A program made the translations under genes and the position numbers. Under the pieces are notes generated by a model. It did no database searches, was not told where the DNA came from, and saw only the letters and a program-made list of their open reading frames with translations. From Perkinsus chesapeaki (lineage: Eukaryota > Perkinsozoa > Perkinsida > Perkinsidae), in the NCBI GenBank assembly GCA_013115145.1, contig JAAPAO010000259.1:1-46069 (forward strand): 46,069 nucleotides of DNA. Direction: 5' to 3'. Below, piece after piece: positions 1,607-38,500 of this stretch (position 1 is its first letter; every line of letters begins with the position of its first letter).

Positions 1607-2705
1607 TTAACCATCGAAGTTCATGATCTTCTTAATCCGTCTCCAGATTGTTCGATGTGGCAACTTTGCTTTCTGTCAGGGAAAAAGAGGAAAAGGCAAA
1701 ACTTTTTTTCATGACGATTATTCCGGCAATTCACCGATTTGGAAGAATTCGGCCTAGTCGGCAAAATATTTTTACCAGTCCAAATCTTTTTGAAGCATAA
1801 TTTCCGAAAAGGAAAAAATCGGAAAAATGAGACCTCACCTCACTGCCAAGATTCTTTTTACCAACCCCCTCAGGGCTCGGCTTCGGGCACACCGTGCCGG
1901 ACTTCAACCGCCCAGTTGGTCTAGCGGGCGAGGGATAAACCATGGCTCCTCGCTGAACCAAAAGGTATCCGGTTCTATTCCCAGCGATGACACTCACTCT
2001 CGACGGCAGGGGCACTTGTACATTCATTCTGTCGGACCGTTTCGGACGGCTACTTCGCCCGTAACGCTTCTTTGAGCTGCTCACCGGGAGGCCACTGTAC
2101 GCGGGCGGTGACGAACCTACGAGCAATGCTTCGAGCTCGGATTCTGTTGGTAATTTCAGCATCTAAATGCTGCTAATAAACTTCCTGTCAGGTGGACCAC
2201 TGACATCCCCGCGGCGGTTAGTGAACAACTTAATGTGAGCATAAAGCCGGGTAGAGCTTCCCTCCATGCGCGGTGGCCTCACAGCAGATGGGAGTTCGGT
2301 GGTATAACTGGTATCACTCGAGAGCTCTCGACATGGCCTTGCTGGTTTCCTACAAAATATCTCGAAAAGATTGAACTCCGAATCATGGTTGAGCTAAAAA
2401 ACGGTTACATGGTTTGATTTCACCAACTGTGATATGTACGGAAGATTTCGCCTGCCAGCGGAAATTATCGCGAAGTTACTCGAGAAGAGTGTCAGTTTTC
2501 AAAGCCAAAAATTTCCGGAAAAAAACAGCATTTTCCCAGCCAAGGTCCTCACGCTCACCTAGACCAGGCGCCATCGGCCGCACCAATTTCTTTCCCAGCG
2601 TTGGCGTTGACAGTCGGCTCGAACCCATACTGCCAACGTTCAAGTCACTACAAGGGGATGTGCCACTCATCGGAGGCGATGCGGCAGTCAACAGTGTATC
2701 GAAGG
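1607..2705 (-). CDS. Multi-exon gene, Ser/Pro/Arg-rich, unrecognised
   Basis: Exons (minus, in reading order): 2559-2705, 1998-2143 and 1607-1672. Junctions are GTGAGC donor to AACAG acceptor, then GTGAGT donor to CTGACAG acceptor, and the phases agree. The product reads Ser/Pro-rich sequence (SSRLSTPTLGKKLVRPM), then SELEALLVGSSPPAYSGLP, a basic stretch (KKRYGRSSRPKRSDRM), and ends RRIKKIMNFDG-stop. The 5' end is missing: 2705 is a TTTTCAG acceptor, not a start codon. The low-complexity basic make-up suggests a regulatory or nucleic-acid-associated protein, but no domain is recognised. The last intron begins with an antisense tRNA T-arm-like sequence (see 1904-1990). Confidence 0.5.
1904..1990 (+). 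repeat. tRNA-like element inside intron (antisense to gene)
   Basis: A Pol III A box matching TRGYNNARNNG (TGGTCTAGCGG, 1917-1927) sits in a perfect D-arm: GCCC at 1910-1913 pairs with GGGC at 1926-1929. A near-perfect B box, GGTTCTATTCC, is at 1971-1981. The anticodon and T stems are degenerate, so this is not a working tRNA gene. On the minus strand the host intron starts GTGAGTGTCATCGC and runs straight into the antisense T-arm. Confidence 0.5.
2144..2558. other. Intron of the 1607-2705 gene
   Basis: This is the gap between two exons whose phases agree. It holds no tRNA-like segment and no convincing internal exon. Confidence 0.45.
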
Positions 2706-2959
2706 CTGAAAAGATACAACAATAAAGCCCCTTCAGTTGTATATCTCAATAGTTACAAATATCACTTTGCACGCCTACTTCATAAATTTTGTGTAAATGC
2801 ACTTGTCTTCTTTGGTCTGTGAATGTACTCGTTCAATTATTAGCTTAATCGTATGGATCGTAATTATACTGTATATAATTGTATCTCCGAACTCAATCAA
2901 AATCTTAATTCGTATTCAGCTCTGATACTCAACCCTACAGCCAGGCCGATTTCCGAGCG

Positions 2960-3429
2960 CTAGATTAGTCCGAGGCTCTCGAGCTGCTCGAGTATCGTTT
3001 GCTTGGATTGCGTCGCAATCAATGCGATCCCCCGATTCTCACTTTGTCTTTCGTCGGCAGGAATGACGTGTCGTTGAACTCGACTGGCACTTGGGCGAAT
3101 GGGCGATTTTGAAATCTGAGAAAATCCGAAAATGAAGAAACAGCATCTTCGACCCAGCAGAAAAAAAATCAACTTTCTGCTGAAAAAACGAAAATCAGAT
3201 TTTTTCCATTAACAATAAATTAACGATATAGTCTGCGGGCGGCGAGAGAGATCTGCCACACAGTATAGAATGTCTCCCGCTCGAACCGTAGTAGTCTCCC
3301 TTACATGGCTGCCCACTGAGAGCCTCATCGCCGAGGAGCCTCCTGACGGTCGACGGTCTCCGCTGCTGCAACTCCGACCAAACAGCATGTCCATATCCTC
3401 GTACTCCTCCGCACAGAGCTCGAATGTGC
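2960..3429 (-). CDS. Two-exon 3' part of an unrecognised gene
   Basis: Exon 3305-3429 (after a TTTTTTAAG acceptor) reads ELCAEEYEDMDMLFG and then a Ser/Arg/Gly-rich stretch, ending at a GTAAGG donor. Exon 2960-3115 follows a TTTTCTCAG acceptor in matching phase 0. It reads PIRPSASRVQRHVIPADERQ and ends QTILEQLESLGLI-stop, a probable short amphipathic helix. The start codon is upstream and not placed; it may lie in 3430-3866. No domain is recognised. Confidence 0.52.
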
Positions 3430-3866
3430 CTTAAAAAATACTACTTCCTGAAGGAATGTTCATGCAGTGAAGTTTGGCCAGCGATATGTCAAGCGTTATA
3501 GAGAGGAGAATAATCTACATATCGGACTTCGTATTGAGTAATTAGCAAAGTGCAGTCCCAAAGTCCCGCGTATCTAGAATTTCGCGTATACCCGCTCACG
3601 AAATACACAAAGTCTTCCTATAGAAGTGTGGCCGATAAAGGAATTCTGGTCGATTTCAGGGCGCCCAGTGTTTCTGTGATACCTATTGTTGAAAAGTTCA
3701 CCTAAGCTGACAAGCTTCCTTTTTCAAACTATTCTCGAATGGGAAATTATTCGCAATTATCGAGCTTAACTCACTCAACTCTGTAAAACGCAGAGCTTGC
3801 TAGTTTGTAAACATACCATCAACTCAACTACCGAGACACAGTTACCAAAATCACTTGAAAAGCAAA
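3430..3866. other. No feature recognised
   Basis: No frame of convincing composition and no repeat is seen. It could be an intron or 5' region of the gene at 2960-3429. Confidence 0.4.
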
Positions 3867-4237
3867 CTAATCAGTTGACCTGCCTGAGTTATTGTTAAAG
3901 TCACCAGCAGTCGCCTCCTTCCGCCGACCAAGCTGAGCATCAGCATCATCATCTTCACCAATCTCGCCTTCCTGCAGGACTGCATCGCCCTCGAGTAAAA
4001 TAGGCGACGATTGCAGCCTTCTCACATCCGCGAGGGAACGGGATTCTTCGAACAAAAATCGTCCATTGTCACGAAGCGTGTGTAAATACCTCGGAACGGG
4101 TTTTCCTTTTCCGATCTTCGAAGTGCGGCTTGATCCCGGAGCTGGCCGCGGGCTTGCCGAATCAACGCTGCAGCTGTATCAGCCGAAAGTCTGATCAATC
4201 GAGCGAGCTGCTTTAGATAATCTGCACGCATGCACAT
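3867..4237 (-). CDS. Two-exon gene with a 44-base intron, unrecognised
   Basis: Exon 4090-4237 starts at an ATG (4235-4237; a second in-frame ATG is two codons on) and reads a basic helix (DYLKQLARLIRLSADTAAAL), then SEKENPFR. A 44-base intron (4046-4089, GTATTT...GAAG) leads in phase to exon 3867-4045, which reads SLADVRRLQSSPILLEG and an acidic segment (EGEIGEDDDADAQ), ending NNNSGRSTD-stop. The product is about 108 residues with a helical basic N-terminus and an acidic, disordered C-terminus. The start could instead be spliced from upstream. No family is recognised. Confidence 0.58.
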
Positions 4238-4614
4238 GCCTTAGGTTATTTTGCTGCGAAGTCGGTGGGGGCGGTGTGTCTGCACTATCCATCGAAAGTT
4301 GAGAGTAGTTGCCATCTTGCAGTGTCGTGAGACCTGAATCGGAAATATATGCGAGATACTCAGAAATGGAGTTATAAAAGGTCCATCACCTGACATTGGT
4401 ATTCCCTGAATTTTCGATAGGGTTGGCGATCAAAGCCACGCTACAACACCACCAGTGATTGACAAACGGAAACTGTTAAGTCTAGATGACGACGCTACCG
4501 AATCCTCGAGGATACGCTTCCTTATGAGACTTTCTGAATTCTCAAAGCGTGTAGTGATAACCAAGCACCAATGATGCTCGACAGGAGGCTATCCAAAGTC
4601 CCACGTACTAGGTC
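4238..4614. other. No feature recognised
   Basis: Upstream of the gene at 3867-4237. No coding frame, repeat or motif could be supported. Confidence 0.4.
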
Positions 4615-4618
4615 TTGG

Positions 4619-4698
4619 CCTCTCAGACTTTGCATACTATACGTAGTATAGTATGTAGTACGTAGTACTATAGTATACTACGTCAGCCTCTCAGACTT
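4619..4698. repeat. Nested palindromes flanked by a 12-base direct repeat
   Basis: CATACTATACGTAGTATAGT-type palindromic sequence at about 4632-4655 is followed by TAGTACGTAGTACTATAGTATACTA. Together they give several overlapping hairpins rich in TAGTA/TACTA. The string CCTCTCAGACTT occurs on both sides (near 4619 and 4687), as if flanking an inserted foldback. Confidence 0.5.
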
Positions 4699-4728
4699 AC
4701 GAGTAGTATAGACTTTGCACGATATGAC

Positions 4729-4863
4729 TTAAAGCGTGGCACCTTCCTCCAACTGGCGACATCTTAGCTGGGCACCGATGAAGTCGTCGCCCAGCAGGAT
4801 TAACTCGCGTAACTTGTAGCATGTGAGCATTTGTGCCAGCAACGTTGCCAAGCCTAGAGTAGC
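4729..4863 (-). CDS. Probable terminal exon, unrecognised
   Basis: After an AACATAG acceptor the minus strand reads 44 residues to a stop at 4729-4731. It is Leu-rich (ATLGLATLLAQMLTCYKLRE, then LILLGDDFIGAQLRCRQLEEG) and consistent with helices. The length fits phase 0. Upstream exons (4,900-5,500) were not resolved. Confidence 0.42.
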   Translation of the reverse strand, partial: ATLGLATLLAQMLTCYKLRELILLGDDFIGAQLRCRQLEEGATL

Positions 4864-5589
4864 CTATGTTCAGTACGGTGTTGAATAAATCGGTGAACCT
4901 CATGCCGGTGCAGAAGCCCGTGGTCAATCTGAACCCTCTTCTCTACTTGCTATGCCTGGCGTATAGCGAATGATTGAGTGGCGAATAACCATCACAATAC
5001 GCCACAAGATGATAAGTGCTGTGTGTTGGAGTCGTCGTAGTCTAAACAAACCCCTCTATTAAATAGCCCAAATTATCGGATTGAAGCTACTACGTAGACA
5101 TCTTCAGTGAAGATATGAAGATTCTTCAGAGGTGTCCTTTTGTCCGAAGCCCAATGAGATTATCATTGGCCTCGCACGCCAATGAGGTAACCGTAGCGTT
5201 GTCGAAACAGCTGCTATCTCGACAGCTATGACAGCTACGCTTGCTGTCAGACAGCCCTCAAGTTGAACACCTTAACTAAGTCATACTATCACTCAAGTTG
5301 AACCGTAATAATATAACAGCCTAATACTATATAACGAAGCATAACCGCTACAGTTATTTTAGATGCATATGGGCATCATGCTCGACTGTAACGAAATGCA
5401 GCACGTGCGGCGCCAATCATTCTACGTACACGATAACCTTCTGCCTCAGGAAAGTTACAGCCGGGCTGTAGTGCTCTGAGCTAGCTCGGAGACTGTGGAA
5501 GAAACGAATCCGGTTCGTCGAACCGGCGGTTACCGGGGCAGCTTTCAATTTCGACAGAGAGGTGTGGGCTAATAGGGGACCGCCTTCGG
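4864..5589. other. Non-coding or unresolved; short direct repeats
   Basis: No convincing exon. CTCAAGTTGAAC occurs twice, near 5257 and 5293, with TAACTAAGTCATACTA between. This resembles the AGTTGAG/CTCAACT hairpin motif at 20,280-20,320 and 25,650-25,672. Confidence 0.35.
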
Positions 5590-7127
5590 TCATGCCATGG
5601 CCGGCATGGAGGGATTTCCGGAATTTGAGATCCGAAGAGGCCGAAGAGGCCGAGGAGGCATGGGGTGTGAGATCCCACCTGGAACTCTCAAGCAATTTGC
5701 TTGAAGCAAAACTGAGTGGACGTCCAAAGCGTCCAAATGTAGGGCTACTCACCTCGCGGCGGGGCCAATATTCTGCCGCTAACCGACAGAACCTTGCCAG
5801 GTGCCGACGCCCGCAGCGCATTGCTATTTTCATTGCTGGTGCTCTGAGGCAAATCCGATGAGAGAGCTTGCAGCAGCCCGCCCGGCATAGCAGTCGACAA
5901 CGAAAGTGATTTCGTATTAGACGGTATTGAGGTCTTCAACAGCTCAGCCAGGGCCGCCTGTGAAGGGGAAACTTGCAACCGAAAGGTCTTGCGTTCGAAC
6001 CAGCCTACATTCTTTTTCTCCAAGTCTCGCGCTGTACTCCAAAGCTCAGCGTAGTCGCGCTCGAGGTCCTTTAATTTCGACACTACTTCGTCCTTCTCAT
6101 GCAGCGCTCTCGTTAACTGCAGCAACACGGCCACCATCCGAACACTCCTTCCCACGATAATCCGACTAACTATCCGAATCGGCTACATAATCACAACACT
6201 TCGATCAGGACTATAACGTACAACGCAGGTTCGATCCCGAGTACAAGCTCACTTGTTGCTTAATTTTTGCAGTCTCTTCCGCCTTTTCTTGTATCCAAAA
6301 CTCTCTCTCCAGGGACTGATCATCAACCTGCACACTGTCAAATCTCATACCACTCATTCCTCAAATCGCCCACCTGTCGCTGTATTAACGCACGCGCTGC
6401 CTTCTCCTTTTCAACTGCGTGCCGTAGCCGAGTAACCTACGCCACGCCTCCAATTCGCACTTCCCAGTGATCCCCTCCTGTCTGCGCACTGTGAGTATTG
6501 CGTTTTCTTAAACCGTTTCGCGTTTCTCCACAAGACAAAGAGCGTTCCTTCTATATGATATAAGCTGCTCTTGTCGAGGCGTAAACCGATATGCGTATAT
6601 GAGCACTAGAGCATTGGAGGAGAGCACTAGGAAGAGCTGTAGATTCAACGCCACATGCGCGCCTCTCGGAGCCAATCTTGCCACGCTCAGTATCGATTTC
6701 TCGTCCGGCTTTCTCCACCACCATCCCTAGTCCGTCTCAGCATTGTGTATTTTCGTAACGGTATTCACACCGATTTCAATTTTGGCCGAGTGTGAGCATC
6801 ATCATCATTATCATCATCCGGCCGGCGCCAGAGACTGGGGGTCAAGACTGTACTAGAATTCCGCCAATAATCTTTAACTCTTGTTCTGTTCCGCTCCCAG
6901 CTAGCCTCCGAAATTTTGAAGCTATCGGTGAACACATCGAAAACATCACGAAAAATCGCGCAGCATACCAGCTCGGAAACGGCACAAGTTCTGTCTCCCC
7001 AGCAGCCCACCTCCTGCCGTAGTAATTCCCTATCGCCAACTTTATCATTCGATGCACTCCGAGAACTCACAGAGAGATTCCGAGCACGAGCTGGGGAGGA
7101 GACAGCAGACAGGCTTGCCCGGGGCAT
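5590..7127 (-). CDS. Coiled-coil protein with Ser-rich N-terminus, multi-exon
   Basis: Exons with consistent phase: 6374-6436, 6253-6327, 5753-6116, 5590-5678 (minus). They read VTRLRHAVEKEKAARALIQR, then SLEREFWIQEKAEETAKIKQ, then LHEKDEVVSKLKDLERDYAE and a Ser/Ala-rich tail, ending PSMPAMA-stop. The Glu/Lys/Arg/Leu pattern over the first three exons predicts a coiled coil of about 90 residues, so a structural or scaffold role is likely. A Ser-rich first exon is likely at 7011-7127 (ATG at 7125-7127; PRASLSAVSSPARARN), ending at a GTGGGC donor. The exons between 6437 and 7010 were not resolved. The intron after 6253 begins with an antisense tRNA T-arm. Confidence 0.58.
6216..6252 (+). repeat. 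tRNA T-arm-like segment abutting a splice donor
   Basis: A perfect B box, GGTTCGATCCC (6229-6239), is followed by GAGTACAAGCTCAC, whose complement is the GTGAGC donor of the minus-strand intron starting at 6252. No clear A box is present, so only a 3'-half fragment is claimed. Confidence 0.42.
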
Positions 7128-7181
7128 CAGGCAAGGATAAAAAACTGTCAAATCAAACTCTACTATCAGTAGTGTCGAATT

Positions 7182-7316
7182 GGTGGTGACTAATCAGTAC
7201 TCTACTGATTAGTCACCACCTATTTGCGAGTGTTAGAACTTCAATTGGGTCTACTAAGTAGACACTCGACTCTGCACTCGGAAAACCGTGTGAAGTAGAC
7301 TCTACTTTTTCGAGTG
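7182..7316. repeat. Cluster of near-perfect hairpins
   Basis: GGTGGTGACTAATCAGTA (7182-7199), loop CTC, then its exact complement (7203-7220): an 18-bp stem. Close by are GTCTACTAAGTAGAC, AGTAGACTCTACT, and a 9-bp pair CTGCACTCG/CGAGTGCAG enclosing about 30 bases. All lie just upstream of the Ser-rich first exon at 7011-7127. They could be cruciforms, small-RNA precursors or foldback insertions. Confidence 0.7.
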
Positions 7317-7700
7317 CAGCTCTTCATCAGGCTTCACGAGGCATGCCAACGCAACGCATTCGTCCAACACAAATTTACGCTGCTCGTCACAGTAGCAGAT
7401 TCTCCAACGACTCCTGTTATTTCTCCTTCCGGCTTCTTCGCAGAAATCATTTATTCACTTTTTATTTATCATTCAATTAAAGTATGGTGAAGACGACGTA
7501 AGTGATCCATTCTAAAGTTTGGAATTTGAAAAGCCTCATCCTCGCAACTTCTCAACGATGATGTATTATACGCCGATCGAAAGCCCTTATCAAGATCTAC
7601 ACAGAGATGGTTTACTGTGCATGATTCATATTAGCATTCCTCGAGTCGAGACCCCGATCTACGCCGCTCAAACTCGGGTTCATATTTCCCGAGGAATGCA

Positions 7701-7930
7701 ATAGGATAGGCCACTCTCAAAACTGCCGTGGCATTACTAAATCGAAATAGGATAGGCCACTCACAAAACTGCCGTGGCATTACTAAATCGAAATAGGATA
7801 GGCCACTCACAAAACTGCCGTGGCATTACTAAATCGAAATAGGATAGGCCACTCACAAAACTGCCGTAGCATTACTAAATCGAAATAGGATAGACCACTC
7901 TCAAAACTGCCGTAGCATTACTAGATCGTT
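7701..7930. repeat. 46-bp tandem repeat, five copies
   Basis: The unit starts ATAGGATAGGCCACTC and contains AAAACTGCCGTGGCATT. Copies start at 7701, 7747, 7793, 7839 and 7885. The middle copies are nearly identical and the last two carry shared changes (GCCGTAGC), as expected from unequal exchange. It is not coding: the unit length is not a multiple of three and stops occur. Confidence 0.9.
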
Positions 7931-9090
7931 TTTATGAAAAGTCGGCAAAACACAATCGTTGCCAATTATCCCCTCCCCTCCAATTTAAAATGGACTAACT
8001 CTCAACAACGCCACTCAACAACGACTTTCATCGAACATGCCAATAATAACAATAGTGAGCTTACCTCACATTATTAGTAATCGATCATCTGGGCGAGCGC
8101 TACTTACAATCATGTATCTGTCGATATATGCTTGATGTTAATGCATAGCTGATCTTTGCAGGTCTGACAGAAGACGAAAACGTAAATCGTGCAACACTTC
8201 GCTCCGCTCAAATATTCAGTATACATAATGCTTTCACCGAACAGCTCTGATGAGACAATTCCCTCCGCACGGCAGTTTCTCAAGTTTCAATGCCCACCAA
8301 CCGTTCCCTCACTTCTCAAATGCCGACCGCAGCAAGCGTTGATAAGGCAACATTCAATAGCGGGGATGTATATCATTAACTATATTATCACCAGGCATAC
8401 ACAAATTAACACACACAACCTTGTTATAGTTTGGTAATGTTATTTATATGCCAGAACATGTAGAGACGAGCTCATCTCACAAAACGAGCGAGACCATCTA
8501 GTGTCCCCAGCAGTGGCGATGAGAAGGACTAATTTTGAGAGAGTGATTCACTCAACACTACGTGTAGCTATCAGTAACTGTCACACATTTTCTCGATCAT
8601 TAATGTGACATTATACCAAAGTTATCATTTGCATCCAGTCCGCTAAACCAGCATGCCCCCTCGATGCCCGTAATTCCACTCATCTGCACTATTTCAGTGC
8701 CTGCGGCACGGCTGCTGTATGCAACATAATGATTGTTCCACAATTACGGCGACACAAAGTGTTGTCCCGTTTTCACTGTATTTCCGTTGCCTAATACTTT
8801 CGGATTTCCTCTTGTTGGAAAAGATCCTTTTCGTTGACTTTATTACAGCACATTCCAAGTTCCTCCCCCCCTCACCATTTTAAATGCAACCTTCGGCAAC
8901 TGTAACAGCCTCTCGAAGCTCTTCGTATTTGCAAACATAAAAGCAAGTAGTCGATTCACAAATGTCTCTGTCTGATGTTCCTGATGATAAATCTCCCATT
9001 AGCAGCGGTCCAACGATATTAATTTGATTAATGCACATTAATCATATCAATATAAATATTACAGCATGACCCAATGAAATAGAATAATTC
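7931..9090. other. No gene recognised
   Basis: AT-rich sequence with short frames of unconvincing composition and no clear splice-bounded exon on either strand. Confidence 0.4.
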
Positions 9091-9139
9091 TTATTTTTCA
9101 ATTTCTCGCTCGGCGTTCACACAATTATACAGGTGAAGA

Positions 9140-9320
9140 GGTATCCCACGTCGGTTCGAATCCCAGCGAGGGCACCAATGAACTACCGCAAATGTTAGCA
9201 GTGGAAAAATACCATTACAGACGTTCTGTATAAAAGCAATGCACACCCGCACGAGTAACATTTGCTGTCGCTCGAAGACCACATTCCCCCCAAATTGTCC
9301 CACGCCGGTTCGAATCCCCC
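9140..9320 (+). repeat. Two related tRNA T-arm-like segments
   Basis: TCCCACGTCGGTTCGAATCC (ends 9163) and TCCCACGCCGGTTCGAATCC (ends 9317) share 19 of 20 bases, each with a perfect B box (GGTTCGAATCC). The first continues CAGCGAGGGCACCA, like an acceptor end with CCA, and matches CAGCGATGACAC after the element at 1904-1990. This suggests one repeat family. They lie on the opposite strand to the exons around them. Confidence 0.5.
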
Positions 9321-10285: not shown

Positions 10286-10810
10286 CCGCTATTTTTCGCC
10301 TCTATCTCTCGTACGATCCTCCTCCCCTTGAGTTGAAGCAAGGAAACATACCCCTTCTAAGGTATTGATTCATACTCATTATTTTCTAGTATTTTTCCGT
10401 CCATTCGATGCATTTTCCATTTCAATAAAACCTAGCGATACCATTAATATAATAATATTAGTAATATAATGATAATAGTAATATAATAATAATAGTAATA
10501 TAATAATAATAGTAATATAATAATAACAGTAATATAATAATAGTAATATAATAATAATAGTAATATAATAATATTAGTAATATAATAAAATAAGTAATAG
10601 AATACTATTAGTAATATATTATAACACTATTAATGGCAATATATTAATATGTTATCTGGTATTAATATAATTATGATATTGCACATCTTCAACAAGATAA
10701 CTCGGGGATCCAGAGGTAGGCATAATTTACCATACGAATGGTATTCGATTTATAACAGAGCTATTTTCCACCTCTATCTCTCATCTGATCCTCCTCCCCC
10801 CTCTAATCTA
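10286..10810. repeat. AT minisatellite flanked by a 45-base duplicated segment
   Basis: Bases about 10440-10645 are an imperfect (TAATAATAGTAATA) array. On each side is a copy of a segment with CCTCTATCTCTC and GATCCTCCTCCCC: 10296-10336 and 10770-10812, about 85% alike. The array therefore sits between direct repeats, as if a segment duplicated around it. Confidence 0.7.
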
Positions 10811-11908: not shown

Positions 11909-14900
11909 TTAGCCCAGCCCCGGTACTAGTCGGCTGATTAATACTCTGGCCGAAATAAAACGAAGCCAAGATACCTCCCGTATTACCTCGTAATCGTCCA
12001 ATGGGAATGAATCTACCTCCACCTTCCCCTTTACCCAGCTCTTTAGCGAGCTGACCAGCTGCGATTCGATCGGATGCTCTACCACGACAACTTCACCATT
12101 CTCGTTGAACTCACCAGGAATAATTAAACGCTCTACAGAAAGAACCTGAAAGAAAGAAGATAAAAAAGTACCCACCCGGGATTGAACCCACGACCTTTCG
12201 CAAGCGAAGTGGATGATCATTATGATATTATAGGCAGCGAAGTCGAGTACGACTTGAACTGGGAACCATTTTATTATCAGGCACCATTGGCATTTTCGTA
12301 ACTAATCGAGAGTCTATGATTTGGTGAAGTTGTCGCGATTAAGTTCCCGGCTCTCAACAGGAACTCACTTTTACTTTATTCAATCCTATAGTTGATTATT
12401 ATACTTTACTACCAATTCTATTGTGCGTCCTCCAAGACAATCGACCGAATCGGCAATCTGTTAATACATTATTAGCTCTACACACCATGTACTCATATCC
12501 AACCGTCTACTAGAGAGTGTTAAATCATCACATTTCTTGGACCCGCAGTATGTCCGTAAAGCTGCAGCCGAGGATCGAACCCAGGACCTCTTGCTTACCA
12601 GTCGACTAGTACTCATAATGAGCATCTCCGCATCCGCTCTCCTCGCCATCTCCACTGGCATCGCCTCGTAAACTACCTCAACATCATGGTCTCGACACGC
12701 CTCCAGTAACAACTCCCTAATAGTGCCACTTAACACCTGACAATTCGCCATATAGGGACAGTTGGGATCTCGCTAATCCTTTCATGCACGTCACCAGTTA
12801 GATGACGAGGCGTTTGGCAACCTTAAGAGAGTCATAGTTACCCCGCTGATAAACCGCGCTTGCTTGAATTTCATCACTTTGACAATCAGATTACTGGACA
12901 TGATTCACATTGTGTCAACACCTTTTGAGGTCAAACACACTTCACGCAAAGGAACAATCCTTCTCCCAAACTGAAGCCTTAGGGCTCCCACTATTATGCA
13001 TACACTACTACATATCAGACACTTCAAATTTCGAGCACTGCAACTCGTTTAGGATCGTCAAGCTTCCAATTCGGGTATACCAAATCCTCAAAAGTTCAAC
13101 TTCAATTTCATGGAGAGCTCAGGCCTATCCGATCTTCCAGCTCAGCTCCGGCGTGGAGATGAATGATACAATGTTCATGTAGTGCTCCACAAATTCCCAC
13201 CAACTCCCGCTTTTCACCATTCACTAAAACAAATGGTGGAGTTCGCCGATTTTCATATAAATTATTCCGCGCAATGAATCGAACCCACGCCCTCCCGAAT
13301 GCCGAACCACTACCTTATCCGCTCCCGCTGTGTAGACCTTCCCATCAACAACTATTGCCACATTAGAGCTCAGTCCCTCTGTAACTCGATCGTCACGTCC
13401 AACCATCACCAGCTCCTCAACACCCTGCGGGATACCGCCTCCTATCGACTTCCTTTTTTCTGTCCAACTGACGTCTTTAACGCGGACGTCACCTAAAATC
13501 GGCCAACTAATGAAATAATATTTGCCATGTTAACCATCGAATGTTAACCACGAACGAATCTACCGAAATTTGTATACTATTTGCCCAGTGAACTCGGCAT
13601 CCCAATCCGGTCGTCATTCCGTATTACTACCATTTCTCTCCCCCCTAATAAGCTCCGCCACACATCTGATATTCTTATGTACAGGCAAAGGGCATAAGAA
13701 CATCCACATATCCTTAACCCTGTATGTGATACCAATCGTCACTTGCGCCTCGAAACTATCCGATTGAGCTTCACCATTGAGCGCACAGATGCCTTCGATG
13801 CACATTTTCTTGACCGCGCGCCCCAGAGTGTCAATGTCGGGGGCCTGAGAAATGCCAAATCAACAAAACGAACGAATTTTTATTATATGGTATCTTCACT
13901 ATTAAAAATATGATACTAAGTTCACCCCGAAAAATTGACTGCAATGAAAATCCATTACACAAGATACGGTAATTAGAAAGGATACTTTTGATCGGGAGAT
14001 ATAAAACAAAGCATTGGTGAAAGGAATTCCACCACTCCAGAGAACCGGGCGGAAAGTACACTGTCAACCCCTCTTTAGGCCACGACAACGATTCGTTTTG
14101 ATTAGCAATCGGATACACCTTATTCGGCCATTCTCTGAGTTGAATCTTAAGCCAATGTACAGCAACACTGCAGTGTTTAATATAACTAACGCTTAGAGCT
14201 AATACCGCAGTTTGTTACGCAATGAATCGCAGACGTCTGTCAACCTCACGGCAGCCCACACAGATGGTAATAGGATTGGAACGTTAAATGCTCCCAGGAG
14301 GAATACGTCCTATCATTACTTGCCCTGACGGAGACACTTCCTTGTAAAATTCATATAATACATTCTCCGAACCTCGAAGAGAATATATTCGAGACTACGC
14401 ACGATAGAAGATTAGAAATAATCCCAGACAATCATTCCCCTTACTACATCATTAGTATCATCATAAGCTGCACTCAAGCGTTTAATATGTCTATCAAGAG
14501 ACAGTATTCGAGTGCCGTTGAATGTGGTACGCATAGTGGTGAAGACGCCTCCCTCTAGGGCTAGTGCATGCAGGAAAGAGGACTTGTCGAGGCCTGGTGG
14601 GGATACCTGAGAGGATTCGGATATTAAAGAGAAGTAATAATAAAGGTTATTAAAGAGAAGTAATAATGAAGGTTATTAAAGAGAAGTAATAATAAAGGTT
14701 ATTAAAGAGAAGTAATAATAAAGGTTATTAAAGAGAAGTAATAATAAAGGTTATTAAAGAGGAGTAATAATAAAGGTTATTAAAGAGAAGTAATAATAAA
14801 GGTTATTAATGAGGCCTGATAGTGGATCTTGAGAGCACTAACAACGATATATTAAAGAAAAATGAGCGAGATTGAATTAATATATTAATGGTTGGAATAA

Positions 14901-16401: not shown

Positions 16402-17895
16402 TCAACAGTCCACTGGAGCACACGGTTGATTCCCTCCATGACAGACGGGCTGCGGACGCCACCATTTACAGTACGAGCTGCCGCCATTGAGCGTCTGACA
16501 CATAGCATCGCATCCAGCATCCTGCCCTTGGTGAGGACCGACAGGCGTTGGAGACGGCCATTGTTGCGATGTGCACACACCAACATCACCACAGGGCTGA
16601 TTGCCCCCCTGGCAGGTTGGGACCGATAACCAATACTTGCAGTATGAATCGACGCCATTAAGACTTCGGCACATTGTATCACAAGCTGGGTGGCCTACAC
16701 GCTCAGTTGTAACAGGCGTTGACGGTACCACACAAGCGTTGTAGTCTCCGCAAGGTTGGTTGCCCCCATAACACACTGGAGGATTAGCCCATGTTTTACA
16801 GTATGACCCGACCCCATTCAGATGGACGCAGTATCGATTACAATGCTCAGGATCAATTGTGGTAGTCGTAGGTGTAGTGCTGCCAATAGTGGACGGCACC
16901 GTAGTAGCTGTAGTGCTCCTAGTTGTGGAAGGTACTGTAGTAGCTGTAGTCCTGCTAGTAGTGGAAGGTACTGTAGTAGCTGTAGTCCTGCTAGTTGTGG
17001 AAGGTACTGTAGTAGCTGTAGTGCTGCTAGTTGTGGAAGGTACTGTAGTAGCTGTAGTCCTGCTAGTTGTGGAAGGTACTGTAGTAGCTGTAGTCCTGCT
17101 AGTTGTGGAAGGTACTGTAGTAGCTGTAGTCCTGCTAGTAGTGGAAGGTACTGTAGTAGCTGTAGTCCTGCTAGTAGTGGAAGGTACTGTAGTAGCTGTA
17201 GTCCTGCTAGGTGTGGACGGCACTGTAGTAGCTGTAGTCCTGCTAGTTGTGGAAGGTACTGTAGTAGCTGTAGTCCTGCTAGTTGTGGAAGGTACTGTAG
17301 TAGCTGTAGTCCTGCTAGTTGTGGAAGGTACTGTAGGGTCAGCAGTCCTGCTAGTAGAGGATACTGTTATGGGAGTAGTCCTGGCGGTTGTAGCCATTAT
17401 CGTGGTGAATGTAGGAGAGCTACCTGTCTGCGATGTACGGATAACACTTGTGGAGGATGCATCGGGTCCAAAAGCGGTGGAATCTCCCGAGGTCGATGAA
17501 GGAGGCATTATCGTTGTCGAGGCAACCGAGGTAAGGCCAGTCGTAGTTGGGGTTGCAGTGACCGTCGAAGTTTGCGTTGTAGTCGTCCCCGAGCAACTGC
17601 ATGGGACGCCGACCGGAAGGAATTCCATGAGCATGCACTGGGCTCCACCACAACTGAAGTTGAGATCAGATCCCATCGTAGCATAGCAGAACGCATTGCC
17701 TTCAACACAGTTGCAGCTACATGGTACAGCAGTTAGCGATCCTTGGATCTGACAATAACCCTGACCGTTGTTGCATATTGCAAGAGAGTTGCCAGTGATC
17801 GTTTTGCAGAGGTCGTGAGCGTCGCTGCAGCCTTGTCCGGAGACCCTCCTCGAAGTTGACACGCAGTAGAGGGAGAGGAGAGCGAAAATATGCAT
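16402..17895 (-). CDS. Secreted mucin-like protein with N- and C-terminal Cys-rich modules
   Basis: One exon, 497 residues; the ATG at 17893-17895 opens MHIFALLSLYCVS, a signal peptide. Order: two N-terminal Cys modules of form C..C....G....C..G.G.C....PCSC (about residues 23-90); a Thr/Ser/Pro linker (about 95-390) with 12-13 repeats of the 12-residue unit TTSRTTATTVPS; then three six-Cys modules with consensus C-x3-C-x2-LNG-x2-SYCK-x-W, ending C-x-GGNQPC. The repeat linker should be heavily O-glycosylated and extended, holding Cys heads apart, as in wall, mucus or adhesion proteins. The N-terminus is paralogous to the gene at 27403. I do not know a named domain for the GGNQPC module. Confidence 0.85.
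   Translation of the reverse strand: MHIFALLSLYCVSTSRRVSGQGCSDAHDLCKTITGNSLAICNNGQGYCQIQGSLTAVPCSCNCVEGNAFCYATMGSDLNFSCGGAQCMLMEFLPVGVPCSCSGTTTTQTSTVTATPTTTGLTSVASTTIMPPSSTSGDSTAFGPDASSTSVIRTSQTGSSPTFTTIMATTARTTPITVSSTSRTADPTVPSTTSRTTATTVPSTTSRTTATTVPSTTSRTTATTVPSTPSRTTATTVPSTTSRTTATTVPSTTSRTTATTVPSTTSRTTATTVPSTTSRTTATTVPSTTSSTTATTVPSTTSRTTATTVPSTTSRTTATTVPSTTRSTTATTVPSTIGSTTPTTTTIDPEHCNRYCVHLNGVGSYCKTWANPPVCYGGNQPCGDYNACVVPSTPVTTERVGHPACDTMCRSLNGVDSYCKYWLSVPTCQGGNQPCGDVGVCTSQQWPSPTPVGPHQGQDAGCDAMCQTLNGGSSYCKWWRPQPVCHGGNQPCAPVDC
16885..17335. repeat. 36-bp coding tandem repeat
   Basis: The unit ACTGTAGTAGCTGTAGTCCT plus GCTAGTTGTGGAAGGT recurs about 12 times. It is in frame (12 residues) inside the mucin-like gene. 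The near identity of copies implies recent expansion or conversion. The repeat leaves other frames open, creating long false reading frames on the plus strand. Confidence 0.92.
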
Positions 17896-22440: not shown

Positions 22441-23139
22441 TGTTTTCTAGATAGCCGATCACACTGCCGAAGACTGCCAACACGAGCTCATAAAGGCTTG
22501 CATCTTCAACGAAGATCTACCTTTTTCCTGACGTTTGAGCCTGATTCGAAACTCACGAACTTGTCAGTTGTTCGATTCCCCCTGGATAAGTTGGCCTCGT
22601 AAGTGAATTTTCCATCTGCAAGTTCGTTCTATTCAAAAAAGAGAATTACGGAAGCTTCAATATCCCCTCTGACAGGAGGCCTCTGTACTAAAAGTGCTCA
22701 CAGGACTCCGTAATAGACTCAACTAGAGTCCCTAGTCTAGGGGGGCATCATCGCCTGTGCCGCGGGGAGAAGACAAAAGCAGCCGCCACGCAGAGCGATC
22801 GAGCGCTCTCCTGGCGAACGTGTCGAAACGCGTATGTAGCAAGTTCTCTGTTGTAGGGTTGCAACACAAGTAGACAGGTAGGGATCCGAGTCCCACTCGA
22901 ACTGTACTTCCAAACACTTGTGCTCTACAATCCAGTTTGTACTTCATACAACCAAACGCGACAGACAGTAATGAAAAAGGACTGAAATACTCACGGTTCG
23001 ATCCGCACTGAGGAGGTTTACTACTAAAACTATATATGGAGCAATAAAGCACTCCTTATATGGCGGCACCGACTATACGATTCGTGATCTATAGATCTAT
23101 TGTGAGTCATGGATTTCTCGTGACATAGAGTGGAGCCCA
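22441..23139. other. No gene recognised
   Basis: No convincing exon. The minus strand at 22732-23052 has an open frame of ordinary composition but no start, family or splice support. Confidence 0.35.
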
Positions 23140-26330: not shown

Positions 26331-26614
26331 TGCAGGATGGAGGTTGAGAGCATTGAACAGCCTTACTGAGCTCATTGCTCAGCCTAATCGAGTGAAGCTG
26401 TGTGGCAAGACTGAATACTTCGAGTCCTAGAGATGAAGCTTGTGGTCTCGCACCTTGGGAGCCATTGTGTTATGGTAGTTGTACACAGGCCCTTGGATGC
26501 GTAAGTGAATTCTGCTAGGAGGAGTAGGATCTCTTGAGACTAGCTACATTCGTTTTTGGTAAACCCTACAGTGACAATAACAGTATAAGTATTAAACTGT
26601 TGCTCGTAAGCTGC
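26331..26614. other. No feature recognised
   Basis: No coding frame or repeat. It may be the 3' UTR of the retroelement remnant. Confidence 0.35.
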
Positions 26615-26668
26615 ACATAGAATGGATAGTCTAACTAAGCCAATTTCGGCGTTGGACTATGAACTCAC
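26615..26668 (+). repeat. Foldback element, copy 1
   Basis: ATAGTCTAAC (26626-26635) pairs with GTTGGACTAT (26651-26660) across a 15-base loop, with one T-G wobble. The flanks GCACATAGAATGG and GAACTC are shared with the copy at 40811-40868. Confidence 0.8.
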
Positions 26669-27120
26669 GTACACGACCCTCGGCCAACGGCGCGATGTAC
26701 GGCTCCAAGGCCGCTCTGCGGATAGCCCAGGCGATGTGTGTAGAAACACTCTGTCATCATCCATAGTTCGTCCAGTTGTAGGCGCTGTGCCTGATATCTG
26801 TGCTCGCATTAGTCGTTATTCCTCCCATTTCCTAATCAGTAACCAAAACATCCCCGAAGCGCTAGAGTTGTCACTGGGAAGTCACTTGTAGCATCTTGTG
26901 GCTCTAAGCCCAGTATCACTTTTAACAAGCAAAAACTTGTTAAGACTCTAACACTTTAAACCCGAATGATACCCCATCACATCGCAGGATGAAGCGCATG
27001 TATCGTCAGTTAAGGTTCTCCTAGAGGTTTGCTCTGCCATGGTTTACTCATCAGGAGATCAGGAGAATAGTAACTTATATACGCTTTTGTTCAGTAGAGT
27101 CTCAGCTAATGTGTGAGTGA

Positions 27121-27163
27121 GTGTATAGTCCAACGCCGGATATGACATAGTCGGACTATGCAT
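27121..27163 (-). repeat. Foldback element, copy 2 (inverted)
   Basis: On the plus strand ATAGTCCAAC (27125-27134) and GTCGGACTAT (27150-27159); read on the minus strand it matches the other copies, with one G-T wobble at a different stem position. Confidence 0.75.
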
Positions 27164-27180
27164 GCTCCATTATAGCGATT

Positions 27181-30019: not shown

Positions 30020-30056
30020 CAAGAGTCCGCGATCGTCTTTTGATTTTGTAACTTTT

Positions 30057-30112
30057 TAGCTCAGCACGTTAGGACCCCTGTTTTTCACTCATCTGACCCA
30101 GGTTCGAATACC
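30057..30112 (+). repeat. tRNA-like element upstream of the PP1 inhibitor gene
   Basis: TAGCTCAGCACGTTAGGACC matches a tRNA D-arm and A box closely. AGGTTCGAATACC is a B box with one extra-loop change (30100-30112). The anticodon region (CCTGTTTTTCACTCATCTGA) could form a weak stem. It ends 68 bases before the ATG at 30180, so it lies in a 5' UTR, a 5' intron or the promoter. Confidence 0.5.
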
Positions 30113-30179
30113 AGAAAATGACATTTTTGAAGCATTTTTAATTCTTATAACTCCAGTTTCTCCCGCCTTATCAATTTTA

Positions 30180-32504: not shown

Positions 32505-35500
32505 ATGATATCGACCCTCTCTTCCGTCACGGAGCTCTCGCAGAATCTTCAACCCAATTCATCCGAGGCTCGAGAAAATGTGGCAAAAATTATCGTTAGC
32601 GGGATGACAGTTTTACACAAGGAAGCGTTCGTGGATGAAATCGCCGCTGCTGTTTTGAGTGAAGAAGTTAAACTGGTCAACGAACTCACAGCGACGATCG
32701 CCGCGCGTATCTTGGACGAGTTGCGCACTGCGAAGATTTTGGATATCTTTGGGGTTTGCGGGAAATTACAGGTCATGGCGAGCAGACGACCAGAATGCCA
32801 GGTGCCGTTCAGCTCGCTCTACTCCAGATTAGTTTGCTTCGGAGAGACTGTCGATTGGGGGAAAGTTGTGGAAAGTTTGGTATCAGAAAACTCACTAACA
32901 GACGTGCAGGAAGCCCAATTCGCTAGCGCGGCGATTGTTGAAATATTTCGGCTTTGCGGCGATGGGAGAAGGGAGATTGTCGAGAAGTTGAGGAGGAGGA
33001 TAATCGCGAGCTTGCCGGACACTTCTGGGGAGGTGAGAGAAGTCATTTACTGTCGGATTCTGCCGTTGATTTCGGATGGAGAATTTATGCGGGAAATCTT
33101 GGAATTCACCGAGGGCAATCACGAGGAGCGCATGATACTGTATTGTCAAGTTCCAGAAATAATCGATCACGCGATCGATTGGGATGATGTGCGTGCGTGC
33201 ATATCAAGAAGCGTTGCAGTGATTCATAGAAAGCGAGCTCGATGGCTGGTCGAGCGCCTCGGTGGGGCGGAGGCTCTTGGCAGCACTACCTGGCAGTGGT
33301 ATTGGGCTCTGGTGGAATCCTTGGACGAGTTCGCGTGTCATATGTAAGCGGTTGGTCGATTGGATGAGGAGCTTACGAGCTTTACCGCGCAGGATTGTAT
33401 GCACCGTTTCGAGATTCAATTAGTAAAAACCTGATCATCAGAGATCTAATTAGATTATGAGCCGCTTGAATTGTTGTTGGGGGAGTGGATTTGTGCGCAT
33501 CTCCGCACCGTGAAGAATATTTTGAAATGTAACTTGCTGTGACAGAGTAGCTCGCTCGGCTGTTTTTCGGATGTCGCTACGACTTTGGCGCCAGTGAGAT
33601 CCCGACGCTCTCGGTCTCATCTGCCCAGCTGATCGTCCTGCTCGTGAGCTCATCATACTCCCCATGATGGCAACGAAGAATCACGATATGGAGAGCAATA
33701 TAAGACAACTAGTGCCGTAGGAGCCTATGTGGAGCGGAAAGGTTCCATTGGATGTGGATAGCCCGGATAGTTAGCTCCAACTGGATGACAAAAATTCAAC
33801 CACTGGGGAGGGTTTCGATCATAAAAACTGCTGCCCAAGGTTTGGTCCCTTTTAAGGTTCAAAGAACTCTTCACACCGAAGCTGCGACGGGTAGCCATCG
33901 AAGCGGCCAAGGTCGATAGGGACGCAGCTAAGGGATGGGAGATGTCACCAAAGTGGATTGAAGCGCTGCTTGATGCATGCCTTAGTCGACATGACAATGA
34001 AGCTATACCAAAGTAAGAGATATTCTTGCGCGCCGTAAAACTAGTGATTTATAGAAGACCTGCGATGTGTGCAGAAGACCTAAAGCCTTGAGTGCTAACA
34101 ATCCGCTTTTTTCCTGGCGGAAAAATTACACACAATTGCGCAGCACATCCTTTCCATAAATTTTTCCATATTTTCTGGGTAATAACAGAGATACTCAGGC
34201 ACGTCCTGACGGAGTTAGGCGCTCATCCGGACCTCGCCCAGGCTGTCCTCAAGGCTGTGGATCCGGAATTTTTCTGTCACAAAATCGTCCGAGGCTTCGA
34301 TGAGAATCTCACGGTGTTCTGCAATCAACTTGGATGGTATGCCCGGCCAGAGAAAGCGGTTACAAGCCATGGGGGTGCGGAAGGTGAGCTAAGAAATATC
34401 TTTTCGAACAATCTTTGACGGTTTCCTAAAAGTTGACCTGTTGGTCGAGATATTCACTAGTGGCACTTAGATGGCCCAGAGGGGAAAATAACGAGAAGTT
34501 TTTGTCAAACTTTTCGTACTCAAGAATCGAAAGAACCTAATAATTCCTAGTATCTTTTGTACCACAAATGGACTTTATAGAATTTCCTCTATAATTTTCG
34601 TCTTACCGTTTTTTTTCGCGATTTCGTCAATCATTTGCCACTTCCTGGTCACTTTTGATCTCGATGGTTTAGGTCCGGAGGCACCAGCTGGCACAGTGGA
34701 GGACTCTCGAGCTTGTCAGGACTTGGTTAATTCTTACGTCACCTCGGGAGGGAAGATCAGCATGCTTCTGAAGGAGGTTCTTGAAGGTAAGTTTGCAGAG
34801 CATTCGCCTGGTGCTTGTTGCACACTGATGATATAAAACCACAACAAATCGAGTCGATAATCAATTATCATTATCACTACTGAATATATTAGCGTCTAAA
34901 GCCTTCCTGCGTCTTGGCGGCGCAATGGGCAGCGTATCTTTTGTGCTTGATGTCTCCTTTTGTGTGAAGGTGCGCACTGTGAAGGTTTTTTGTCAGGGTT
35001 GGTGAATTACACTTCGACACGAGTTTTCTTGGAGGCCATCGGAAATGCTGCAAATGTCCGGAAGGAAATATTCGATGAAAATATCTTGATGGTCTGCTTA
35101 CGGTTCGCAACAACTCGGGTTAAATACTTCAAAACCGCGCTTCGGCCTAAGATACTCTCCTTGTTCACGTCAGCCATCTCACGGTAAGTGGGGTGAGTCT
35201 AGCGAGCGCGCTGGGAATATCCTGATTTAGCTGAGAAACGATAAGTTCTTCGGGGACTAGCTGTTATTGAAATTACAACAATTTCTCATGATTGCGGAAA
35301 TGTACGCCCCAACTTAGCTGTTTCATACATCAACCTTTCAAATACTATATGTGGAGAATTTTTTAAACCTCCTCCTTGGACGGTAATACACTACCTTTTA
35401 TCGGTCGGCCTTCTTATGTGAAAATGCTGCTTGATATTCCTCCTGCGTCGATTGTGGTGAGACTGAAATTGTCTCATTCGTGGTTCGGTAAAGTTTGATT

Positions 35501-38500
35501 CCAAATCGATTACATGATCGATTATCATTTCAGGTCGTTTGAGCTGCCTTCGGAAAGTGTCCTCAGTATTCCCAAGTACCAGGACAATCTTATCAGATTT
35601 TACTCTGTCCTTTGCGCGTTCACCACTCCGGTGCCCCCGAGTCTCATCTGGGATCAAATTCATGGCATCTATCTCCCCAAGGTAAGAATAATTTCGTGGC
35701 GCGTGAACTTTATTCGTTGTAAGATACTTTCTGACACCGCTAGCGAAGCGCTAACCGTCGAGATGATATCTGGTTTGGTTTGGACGCTCCCCGCAAACTC
35801 CGCGGAGCTCGAAGATACCCTTCGGGATCTCGAATCCAACCTCCAATCGATTCCAGCTCGAGCGTATCTTCCTGAATCGGCGATCATTCGTTGGTTGGCT
35901 CTGACCTTGTTTTTGGACCAATACCACGGTGTCAAGATCTGCAGTGAAGCCCTCGCTAGGGGCTTGCCCGAGTTAACCTCTGAAGAATCTTTCCCGCGTA
36001 TGGGTTGGTTGGTGGCTAGCTTGACAGAAAGATATCAGATAAAATGTAAGGATAATTTCGTGGCGAAAGTGACGAAATTGTCGGATCCGAGAACACCGTT
36101 GCTGGAGCAAGTGCACTTGGTTCAAATGCTGGCGGCCGAGTCGAGCTTCAACAAGATTCCCGAGAAGCTTGCAAAGATTCTCTTTCGGATGCGCCCGCGC
36201 TCGACCTCTGATCGGTCCCATACATACGCACTTGGGATCTGCGACACATTTTCGTGGCGCGTGACGGATTTGTTCCATCCGTGGCGAGTTTGCGATGATG
36301 TCATTGATGTATTTTATCGCTGTAAATGGATCGCTATACGCAGCATAATTTCGTGGCGCAGTGACGATTTCATCTCCGTGGACGACGCCAAAACACTCAT
36401 GGAAGAACTGGAAATCGCAGATCCTGCGGTGCTTGTCGATCTTTGCGAGGTTATTAAGACTGTGGCAATTCCAGCAGTCGCCACGAAATTAGACAAAGAT
36501 TTGGCCGTCCAGACGGTCGCCGAGCTTGCAAGATACGCGGGAGGTTACATTTATGGCACTGGAAATCAATACGTGACCGAACAAGCGATGGCCAGCTTGA
36601 TGGGCTTGGTTATGGATGCGAAGTTGATCGAGATTGGGGGGCCAGAAGCTGTGAGCGAAGTGAAACGGCTGATGAAACGGTTGATCGATATTGGGAATGG
36701 TGGGCAGAAAAATGTATTAAGAAGCGGATTGAGTAAGCCGTTAGTGGCAATGCTCAGAAGCGTCAGAAGTAAGTAAAAACTTTCCGATATTTTTGGAAAA
36801 TCTGCGCAATTTTGGTATAATTTTTCCAAAAAATCAGCTCAAGATCAGCTCGTTTGAATACAAATTAATAGGCATGCGGCATTCGATGGTTATAAGCTAT
36901 CCAGCTCGAACTCATACTTCCGGCGTTCTCTTCGTTATTTTATCAAATTCTCAGGAGGCGAAGTCGGCGAGTCGCTCCGTCTCGACTTTATAGAGATTCT
37001 GGCTGCCCTCTGTGTGTGCTCCGACTCCACCAGTAGAACGGAAACCCTGACGTTCATCAGCGCCGTCGGTGGAAAACTCGCCGAAGAAGTAAAAAATGCC
37101 CTACAAGGAATCGAACCAGGGACCTTTCGATTGCGCAATAGGTGCTCCTCGCAACCCTTGCTCATCTGGAGAAGACGCGTGTTTCAATCTACACGACCGA
37201 GTCGGGTGCTAAAGGTCCAGCCACACCAATGCCATTCAGTGGCCATCACAGAGCTCAACTAAGAGGCTGGCAGGTGGAAATCGATCACTCGGACGCGCTT
37301 TTTGCAATCGACTTTCAGGTTGTCATGTGCTTGGTCGAGAATTTGAGGGAGGAGGCGTATAGGGATGAAGTGGCTCCGATACTTTATAAGCATCTTATGT
37401 GGCCGCATCTACCGGATATTAGGGATTATCAAGTAAGATGAAATTTTACGAAAAATTTCGCCGAAATGCAGTTTGGTTTTTTTCAGAAAGGGGGTAGATT
37501 TCAGGAACTTTGTGGAACTTTTTACGCGGGAAAAATTAATTCCTCTCACTTTTTAAGAAACTAAGTTGACTCCGCGGAGAAAGTTCCAAAACTGAAAGAG
37601 TGAAATAGGGGAAGTGGAAATTTGCGGTGCAAACAAAATTACAAGTTGATCGAAAATTAAATTTAATTTTAAATAATCAATTTATCCTGTTTTTTCCGGC
37701 AAAAAAAGTTATCGTTTGACTTCCATCAGGAGACCGTGGCGTGTTATCTGGCTGGTAAGTTCAAAACCGAAACGCTGGACCGTTACCTTCTGCCTGCACT
37801 TGAGCAGTACGATGCCACACCGCAATGCATTGCTAGTGTCTTGCTGGTAGCCACTTATCTGTAAGGGGGGCTTCGCGGGACTTTTGTGACGAGTGATTGA
37901 TTAGTAATACCCAACACCTGCACTAAACTTATTACTTTTATACTGTTTTTCAAGAAATGATTTTCCAATAGATGGTCTTTAATGAACAGTCTGTCTTTTT
38001 AATAGACGTCGATAATGATAACGATTCGGTCCTGCTATCTGAGGAATGGTTGCAATCATCATCATCGTCGCATTTCAGATACTCCATCGATCGTGGTAAC
38101 TCCAAAGTATTCAATCACTTAGTACCGTATCTTTCCTGTAACACAGCTTATATCAGGGGGATTGCTCAATACGCGATTCACACTTTCGGTTTGCCAACTG
38201 ACGGGTCTGATTACTCGGAGATCAAAGGTAGGCGGCTCGTGCATTGGCGAGGGGTCACCGGAACGTCTAGAAATGTCTCTCGGAAAGGTACGCCCGTTTC
38301 ATTTTCGTCGTCTATTTCTGAGTGGAAAAATCTAAACGTCGGGTTTAGATTCTCACTGCAATTTCACATTTGAACCGTTTCATGATTCTCACTTTTGGCA
38401 GTGACATTCTCACTGCTAAGAAAATCAAAAGGCTTCTCCGCCTAAGTGGATGATCTGGCGATCTGTTTGGTACCGCAAAACAACTCTGTATGATATAGCT

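Follow-up and report, generated by a model that had tools for sequence, protein, structure and literature searches.

The origin of new introns in genomes has long been debated. Many of the introners (mobile elements that create introns) identified to date resemble DNA transposons. Short interspersed elements (SINEs) and retropseudogenes derived from tRNAs usually carry an A box and a B box, a tail that is A-rich or resembles a long interspersed element (LINE), and target-site duplications (TSDs), and an intron of rice catalase has reportedly been attributed to a SINE-like insertion. Here we analyse a stretch of 46,069 nucleotides from Perkinsus chesapeaki (assembly GCA_013115145.1, contig JAAPAO010000259.1, positions 1 to 46,069; hereafter the window, taken at its full length) and describe a dispersed family of short sequences that resemble the 3' half of a tRNA. 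These tRNA-3'-half-like units, called TLUs throughout, are probably introner-like.

Passages of Gozashti et al. (2022, PMC9860276) define introner families by similarity among introns that reaches near both splice boundaries, and allow for insertion in opposite orientations; many of the families described there bear marks of DNA transposons, and some have neither TSDs nor terminal inverted repeats (TIRs). The words tRNA, SINE and Perkinsus are absent from the main text of that paper. The introner elements of Amoebophrya are portrayed in parts of Farhat et al. (2021, PMC7789003) as carrying inverted repeats of 8-20 nt and direct repeats of 3-5 nt and as forming mostly non-canonical introns, for which a transposon-like spread is proposed. 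A search of the open full-text literature, subscription papers lying outside it, gave no report of such tRNA-like introns among the papers listed.

Results

A first-pass annotation of the window had reported about ten sequences with a Pol III B box. With at most one mismatch, GGTTCRANNCC occurs 31 times against 15.7 expected, a number that none of 100 shuffles reached, and nine units in the window match the TLU profile, which is 26 nt long (B box, 10 nt, A and TTTT). Throughout the P. chesapeaki assembly (35.39 Mb in 884 contigs), GGTTCGANNCC has 1877 matches against 287 for the reversed pattern, and a B box followed after 6-14 nt by ATTTT is found 446 times against once in the reversed control. 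The string from B box to T-run is exactly 26 letters long in 89 of the 100 matches listed, the same spacing as in a tRNA from the T loop through acceptor strand and discriminator to the terminator. A "neutral" sample of 126.8 kb, made up of the window and 27 of the 30 loci L031-L060 (three that overlap being left out), yielded 37 profile units against 1.3 after Markov shuffling and none after reversal; 33 units score at least 14 and 43 at least 8, of which 5.7 are expected by chance. Because these loci were chosen for holding the ATAATTTCG motif and are possibly rich in mini-introns, only a rough figure of some 10^4 TLUs can be extrapolated for the genome, compared with about 7,000 from the window by itself. 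The conserved columns are A at -15 and -14, G at -6, C at -4, the B box, A at +21 and T from +22, and the B box and T-run are conserved far above the rest of the unit. In tRNA numbering we take the upstream columns to be A37A38, G46 and C48, that is, the generic 3' half of a tRNA.

Two genes in the window place TLUs at verified splice sites. The first encodes a SpoU-type methyltransferase (PF00588), for which we use the label TARBP1-like. Its annotated protein, FOL47_004552 (P0009), maps exactly onto the window with 18 GT-AG introns, four of them only 42, 53, 45 and 47 nt long, and has FOL46_008314 (P0010) as its ortholog in Perkinsus olseni; a 425-aa open reading frame (ORF) at 35499-36776 has a single match, from P. 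olseni. The 53-nt intron is antisense TLU throughout: its B box lies on the minus strand at 37107-37117, its donor, GTAAAAAAT, is the T-run TTTTTTAC read on the opposite strand, and in protein comparison the P. olseni ortholog runs uninterrupted across the junction. An end at 37318 for this intron was rejected, since the annotated protein has a conserved exon inside.

The second gene encodes a class IV aminotransferase-like protein. Once its exons are joined, the product matches Pfam Aminotran_4 (4e-18) and is 75% identical to P. olseni P0002, gapless at both junctions; the source name of P0002 is Quiescin Q6 sulfhydryl oxidase, yet its domain is PF01063. The donor of the 453-nt intron lies 2 nt off the 5' edge of the unit with its B box at 12571-12581, and the acceptor 16 nt past the 3' edge of the unit with its B box at 12178-12188. 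The 577-nt intron carries at its donor end (13275-13285) a sense B-box unit that has no T-run and falls under the profile threshold. Altogether, introns of the verified genes hold four B-box sites (at most one mismatch), the distances from their edges to a splice site being 2, 2, 13 and 16 nt. Under random placement over 20 introns, a test that left out the other aminotransferase introns (which have no listed B box), all four would lie within 16 nt with P=1.2e-4. The core of the first-pass observation holds, and the observation as a whole is partly confirmed. Six junctions had been named there: the annotated protein and the P. olseni orthologs confirm 37089, 13313, 12598 and 12146 exactly, and those at 1997 and 6252 stand as predictions. 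For the former of these predictions (1953-1997), the B box is at 1971-1981 on the plus strand with one mismatch, an A-box match lies 54 nt upstream and the frame is open for 90 nt on each side, but the coding score is negative (-4.0).

Conserved genes elsewhere in the assembly contain further cases. In L041 the residues HPDKN and ADNKEE of a J domain are separated by a 48-nt antisense TLU, and the joined protein matches PF00226 (DnaJ) across the junction at 6e-26 as well as DNAJB-type PDB chains. In L061 a 47-nt antisense TLU interrupts a CCT-delta gene; the joined piece matches CCT-delta PDB chains at 1.7e-9 and PF00118 at 3e-7, the latter under the Pfam cut-off. Two sense cases have junction-spanning matches under the curated Pfam cut-offs, one to Ltn1_1st of listerin (L047, 6e-4) and one, at the second of two introns, to DUF900 (L084, 0.004). 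In L046, which encodes an EF-hand protein, the domain match stops short of the junction and the donor position is not fixed; the candidates in L035, L053 and L079 gave no usable Pfam match. One sequence family is common to introns of unrelated genes, antisense in the TARBP1-like, DnaJ and CCT-delta genes and sense in the aminotransferase-like gene, both orientations being represented. The similarity reaches both splice boundaries in the introns of 47-53 nt, but not in those of 453 and 577 nt; the co-occurrence of donors with acceptors given below points towards such a reach, and the lack of acceptor enrichment in the 51 units points away from it. Judged by these alignments and gene models, introns that consist of a whole TLU, 47-53 nt in length, are demonstrated in the TARBP1-like, DnaJ and CCT-delta genes.

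Splice motifs at the edges of TLUs were counted in a set of 51 units, obtained from 58 by removing the L001-L030 loci and seven matches at tRNA genes; nine of them come from the window, 24 from the motif loci and 18 from loci picked for a B box. GTRRG occurs at -30 to -5 of 17 units against 4.6 expected (P=7e-6). Genome-wide, GTAAG followed after 3-15 nt by a B box is found 125 times, whereas the permuted GAATG gives 21, although one identical tRNA-Thr-like string, to be discounted, makes up 14 of the 100 GTAAG matches listed. With 952 other ATTTT sites as the control, the antisense donor CTYAC follows the T-run 26 times against 9.8 expected (P=1e-5), CAG 117 times against 93 (P=0.01) and CAC 66 times against 74. 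Co-occurrence was counted among the matches listed, on the contigs that these cover and with duplicate places entered once: GTAAG stands upstream in 24 of the 88 units with CAG after the T-run; where CAC follows instead, it does so in 1 of 40 (Fisher P=0.0006), and where CAG is missing, in 8 of 81 (P=0.005). Since GTAAG is commoner with CAG, the donor and acceptor motifs go together on a subset of TLUs. Antisense mini-introns with open flanks of 90 nt and a coding score of at least 3 number 4 against 0.78 expected (P=0.008). The coding scores and candidates are the sole use made of a hidden Markov model (HMM) gene finder at an intermediate setting; weak penalties turned the whole window into one gene, and strong ones left only 3 introns. 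By the same setting, the 25 exact B boxes in the neutral loci fall 16 outside genes, 8 in introns and 1 in coding sequence, in sequence that comprises 89.7 kb, 21.4 kb and 15.6 kb, respectively. The genome-wide excess that the first-pass annotation had proposed to look for is present for the units and for adjoining donors, and missing for acceptors in the 51 units.

The variable part of the TLUs bears a trace of copying. Leaving out two identical copies from the 89 exactly spaced strings gives 87 distinct ones, again among the matches listed. Their 13 variable positions are linked: 42 pairs of strings differ at no more than two positions, where column-shuffled sets give 11.7 (maximum 24), and mutual information is 7.5 against 4.4 (sd 0.21). 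Because of this linkage across strings, TLUs seem to descend from one another, with a subfamily structure by which pure convergence is weakened as an explanation. The genome also encodes reverse transcriptase, with 56 matches to RVT_1 domains.

Besides the TLUs, another motif is dispersed through the genome: ATAATTTCGTGGCGC(A)GYG/CGTGAC has 94 exact 14-mer matches against none for its reverse. It lies in the 42-nt intron of the TARBP1-like gene and was recognised by eye in candidate introns of 42-58 nt at L052, L041, L044, L038, L054 and L040. At 46 sites GTRRG occurs within 20 nt upstream 11 times against 3.4 expected, acceptors are not enriched, and the core is similar to the A box of a tRNA, reading TGGCGCAGYG in 6 of the 46. 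Near-copies also occur in TARBP1-like coding sequence, at 36249-36265 and 36345-36358, where P. olseni encodes FSWR and ISWRSD. Of the 30 motif loci, 20 were searched with Rfam, which gave one tRNA, two weak miRNA-family matches and no rRNA fragment.

Table 1. Features of the window, with coordinates on the whole stretch and the evidence for each.
Feature	Position	Strand	Evidence or remark
Candidate 45-nt GT..AG antisense TLU mini-intron, GTGAGTGTC..GGTTCAG	1953..1997	-	predicted, in-frame
TLU, exact B box, antisense to predicted minus-strand gene	6228..6238	+	candidate donor GTGAGC at 6252, prediction
TLU, B box	9153..9163	+	B-box match and profile score 19.7; no gene placement
TLU, B box, CATTTT at fixed distance	9307..9317	+	B-box match and profile; no gene placement
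453-nt intron, aminotransferase-like gene, sense TLU at each end	12146..12598	-	no break at SRL|VLSV in P. olseni P0002
577-nt intron, aminotransferase-like gene	12737..13313	-	no break at DK|VLSG in P. olseni P0002
Eukaryotic large-subunit (LSU) rRNA-like fragment near acceptor end of the 577-nt intron	12765..12960	- (gene's strand)	131 bits
TLU, B box, one mismatch	22995..23005	+	B-box match and profile; no gene placement
TLU; at the tRNA spacing of 44, an A-box match, TAGCTCAG.., with one mismatch	30101..30111	+	profile and A-box search
SpoU-type methyltransferase (TARBP1-like) gene	32505..41746	+	annotated protein FOL47_004552
42-nt intron, TARBP1-like gene, with second dispersed motif ATAATTTCGTGGCGCGTGA	35682..35723	+	FOL47_004552 mapping and motif search
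53-nt GT-AG intron, TARBP1-like gene, wholly antisense TLU	37089..37141	+	spliced mapping of FOL47_004552

Two other mini-introns of the TARBP1-like gene, 37274-37318 (45 nt) and 39958-40004 (47 nt), hold no recognised motif; the former contains, inverted, GCGCGTCCGAGTGATCGA, which by eye is like the A-box region of tRNA-Ser. At about 1443-1513 of L034 there is a palindromic candidate intron with a ATAATTTC..GGCGCGC motif inverted at both ends, again seen by eye, that recalls TIR-bearing introners. Tandem repeats occupy 16757-17469, 7700-7975, 14593-14865 and 10404-10646 and comprise a 36-bp repeat in a Thr/Ser-rich ORF and arrays of 46, 26 and 17 bp. A further repeat, some 50-60 nt long, is dispersed over 26608-26674, 27111-27166 and 40807-40866, in copies that are 88% identical when direct and 77-82% when inverted, and one copy is inside a TARBP1-like intron.

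Discussion

We consider it somewhat likelier to be right than wrong that TLUs form a large, old and strongly diverged introner-like family, with units of about 42-55 nt built on tRNA 3'-half sequence, whose insertions would have made introns. The unit would comprise A37A38, G46, C48, the B box GGTTCGAWYCC, 10 nt, a discriminator-like A and the T-run. Read in sense, a GTRRG donor would stand shortly before the B box and before a variable-loop-like AAAGGTC, and the T-run would double as the polypyrimidine tract ahead of YAG. Read in antisense, the inverted T-run region would supply the donor, as it appears to do in the TARBP1-like gene, and inverted AAAGGTC would supply CCTTT ahead of AG. Because splice sites can be present on a copy whichever strand is read, a TLU landing in an exon could be spliced out whichever way it was inserted, and its insertion would itself create the intron. 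That TLUs carry their own splice sites in both directions is supported by the three genes with whole-unit introns and by the genome-wide motif statistics. As to spread, TLUs may be transcribed by RNA polymerase III (Pol III) and then retroposed, the source being a pool of copies both large and diverse, a route made plausible by the kept B box and terminator and by the RVT_1 domains that the genome encodes.

Several results weigh against this reading, starting with its tRNA component. The outer T stem of TLUs is unpaired (1.25 of 3 pairs, compared with 1.35 in shuffled sequence), the anticodon stem has 1.88 of 5 pairs, and the anticodon, D and acceptor stems are all at the shuffled level; in 21 real tRNAs of the P. 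chesapeaki genome the T stem scores 3.0 and the anticodon stem 4.0. An A box (at most one mismatch) stands at the tRNA spacing of 44 in 4 of the 51 units, against a mean of 0.34 at other spacings (P=4e-4). This is an excess, but one confined to a minority, with a single case in the window (30101), and the rarity of such A boxes counts against derivation from tRNAs. ARAGORN found no tRNA in the window, and an Rfam scan of the window returned none at the gathering score and none up to E=5. A few TLUs are full-length tRNA-like; because the stems are unpaired and the A box is so rare, most are a 3'-half profile without a cloverleaf. The idea that each TLU arose recently from a genuine tRNA was rejected for lack of stem pairing. 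The "T-arm" of the first-pass annotation is not confirmed as a structure, and at tRNA spacing the window has an A box on one unit, where that annotation had seen A boxes on several.

Other adverse points concern copying and splicing. Outside the core, the 51 units contain no closely similar pair, the best reaching 65% where column-shuffled sets reach 61% on average and 71% at most; such a lack would be expected of an old pool of some 10^4 copies, and other histories fit it as well. TSDs were not detected in TLUs, the longest repeat averaging 4.82 against 4.79 in shuffled sequence. The genome-wide excess of CAG is modest (1.25-fold), and the 51 units show no enrichment of acceptors in sense (35 against 36.0 expected), of donors in antisense (5 against 4.8) or of acceptors in antisense (43 against 49.0). 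Mini-introns with open flanks of 90 nt barely exceed their control in sense (9 against 4.2, P=0.02), with no excess at a coding score of at least 3 (1 against 0.73), and reach 9 against 4.8 (P=0.05) in antisense. Only one of the four TLUs found in verified introns makes up its intron; the other three are at the ends of the 453-577 nt introns. The alignment over the CCT-delta junction has two single-residue gaps, one of them at the junction itself, and the T-run is degenerate in the DnaJ and CCT-delta units (profile scores 13.2 and 26.2, respectively). Taken as a whole, the first-pass proposal of tRNA-derived introners is partly supported: it stands for a B box and T-run family with donors at its edges and for introns made of whole units, and is hypothetical as to descent from tRNAs, the stems being unpaired, and as to the creation of introns by insertion, TSDs having been sought in vain.

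Some of these results would follow if TLUs were tRNA-like mobile or pseudogene sequences that entered older introns, seeming to touch splice sites only because the introns are short and being used in splicing, if at all, secondarily. The two long verified introns with TLUs at their ends only, the lack of TSDs, the acceptors without enrichment and the presence of both splice motifs on a mere fraction of units all suit such a history. We nevertheless think it unlikely, given that three genes have introns of whole TLUs, that donors and acceptors co-occur among the matches listed, and that the four B-box sites crowd so near to splice sites. Elements kept by the host under purifying selection, with TFIIIC-binding sites such as the yeast ETC loci as the model, could likewise lie in introns by happenstance. 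Their conservation would be concentrated in the B box and T-run, as it is here, with few degenerate copies (only ten more units between the two profile thresholds) and with units in both orientations; edge donors that co-occur with acceptors, and a subfamily structure of the copying type, are not what this explanation predicts, and we judge it improbable.

Sense units do sit between donor and acceptor motifs, as they would if the TLU motif were an RNA-level splicing signal of short introns with no element behind it. Antisense units form introns in the TARBP1-like, DnaJ and CCT-delta genes, by which a splicing motif acting at the RNA level is ruled out, and antisense donors are enriched genome-wide, so that we give this account hardly any credence. 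True tRNA genes, of which a family search of the genome gives at least 62 matches, supply part of the B-box matches, and a mixture of chance B boxes and decayed ordinary tRNA genes would make the family an illusion. The near-empty reversed and shuffled controls speak against it, as do T stems that are unpaired, contrary to what recently decayed tRNAs should have, and it too seems to us exceedingly improbable.

The introner-like reading of TLUs can be widened to include the second motif. Mini-introns would then come from at least two introner families built on the two halves of a Pol III tRNA promoter, the TLUs and the A-box-like ATAATTTCGTGGCGC(A)GYG sequences, which would have spread as Pol III transcripts that were reverse-transcribed, inserting in both orientations and accounting for a large share of the 42-58 nt introns. 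This extension is tentative, and we regard it as doubtful. We know of no other introners based on RNA polymerase III, and if the two-family reading were true these would be the first. An intron cassette resembling a tRNA end, working independently of orientation and present in many diverged copies, would mean that Pol III signals can be converted into splice sites, and would illustrate how screens based on similarity may miss old introner families. With its small sequenced genome and its sister species, P. chesapeaki offers a testable system for intron gain.

Set beside the known systems, TLUs resemble tRNA-derived SINEs in their B box, tRNA-like 3' profile, abundance and the presence of reverse transcriptase in the genome; they differ in consisting mostly of a B box and a terminator, with neither TSDs nor a cloverleaf found. 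With the introner elements of Amoebophrya, an alveolate relative, they share short and repeated introns, although TLU introns are GT-AG and direct repeats were not detected, in contrast to the elements as those parts of Farhat et al. (2021) present them. As in the introners that the passages of Gozashti et al. (2022) describe, a dispersed family is common to introns of unrelated genes; unlike those introners, TLUs have diverged past similarity outside an 11-nt core and the T-run, and they bear the Pol III signals of a tRNA end. The rice catalase intron is comparable as a reported short retroelement-like insertion serving as an intron, but it is a single case, whereas the TLUs of P. chesapeaki make up a large dispersed family.

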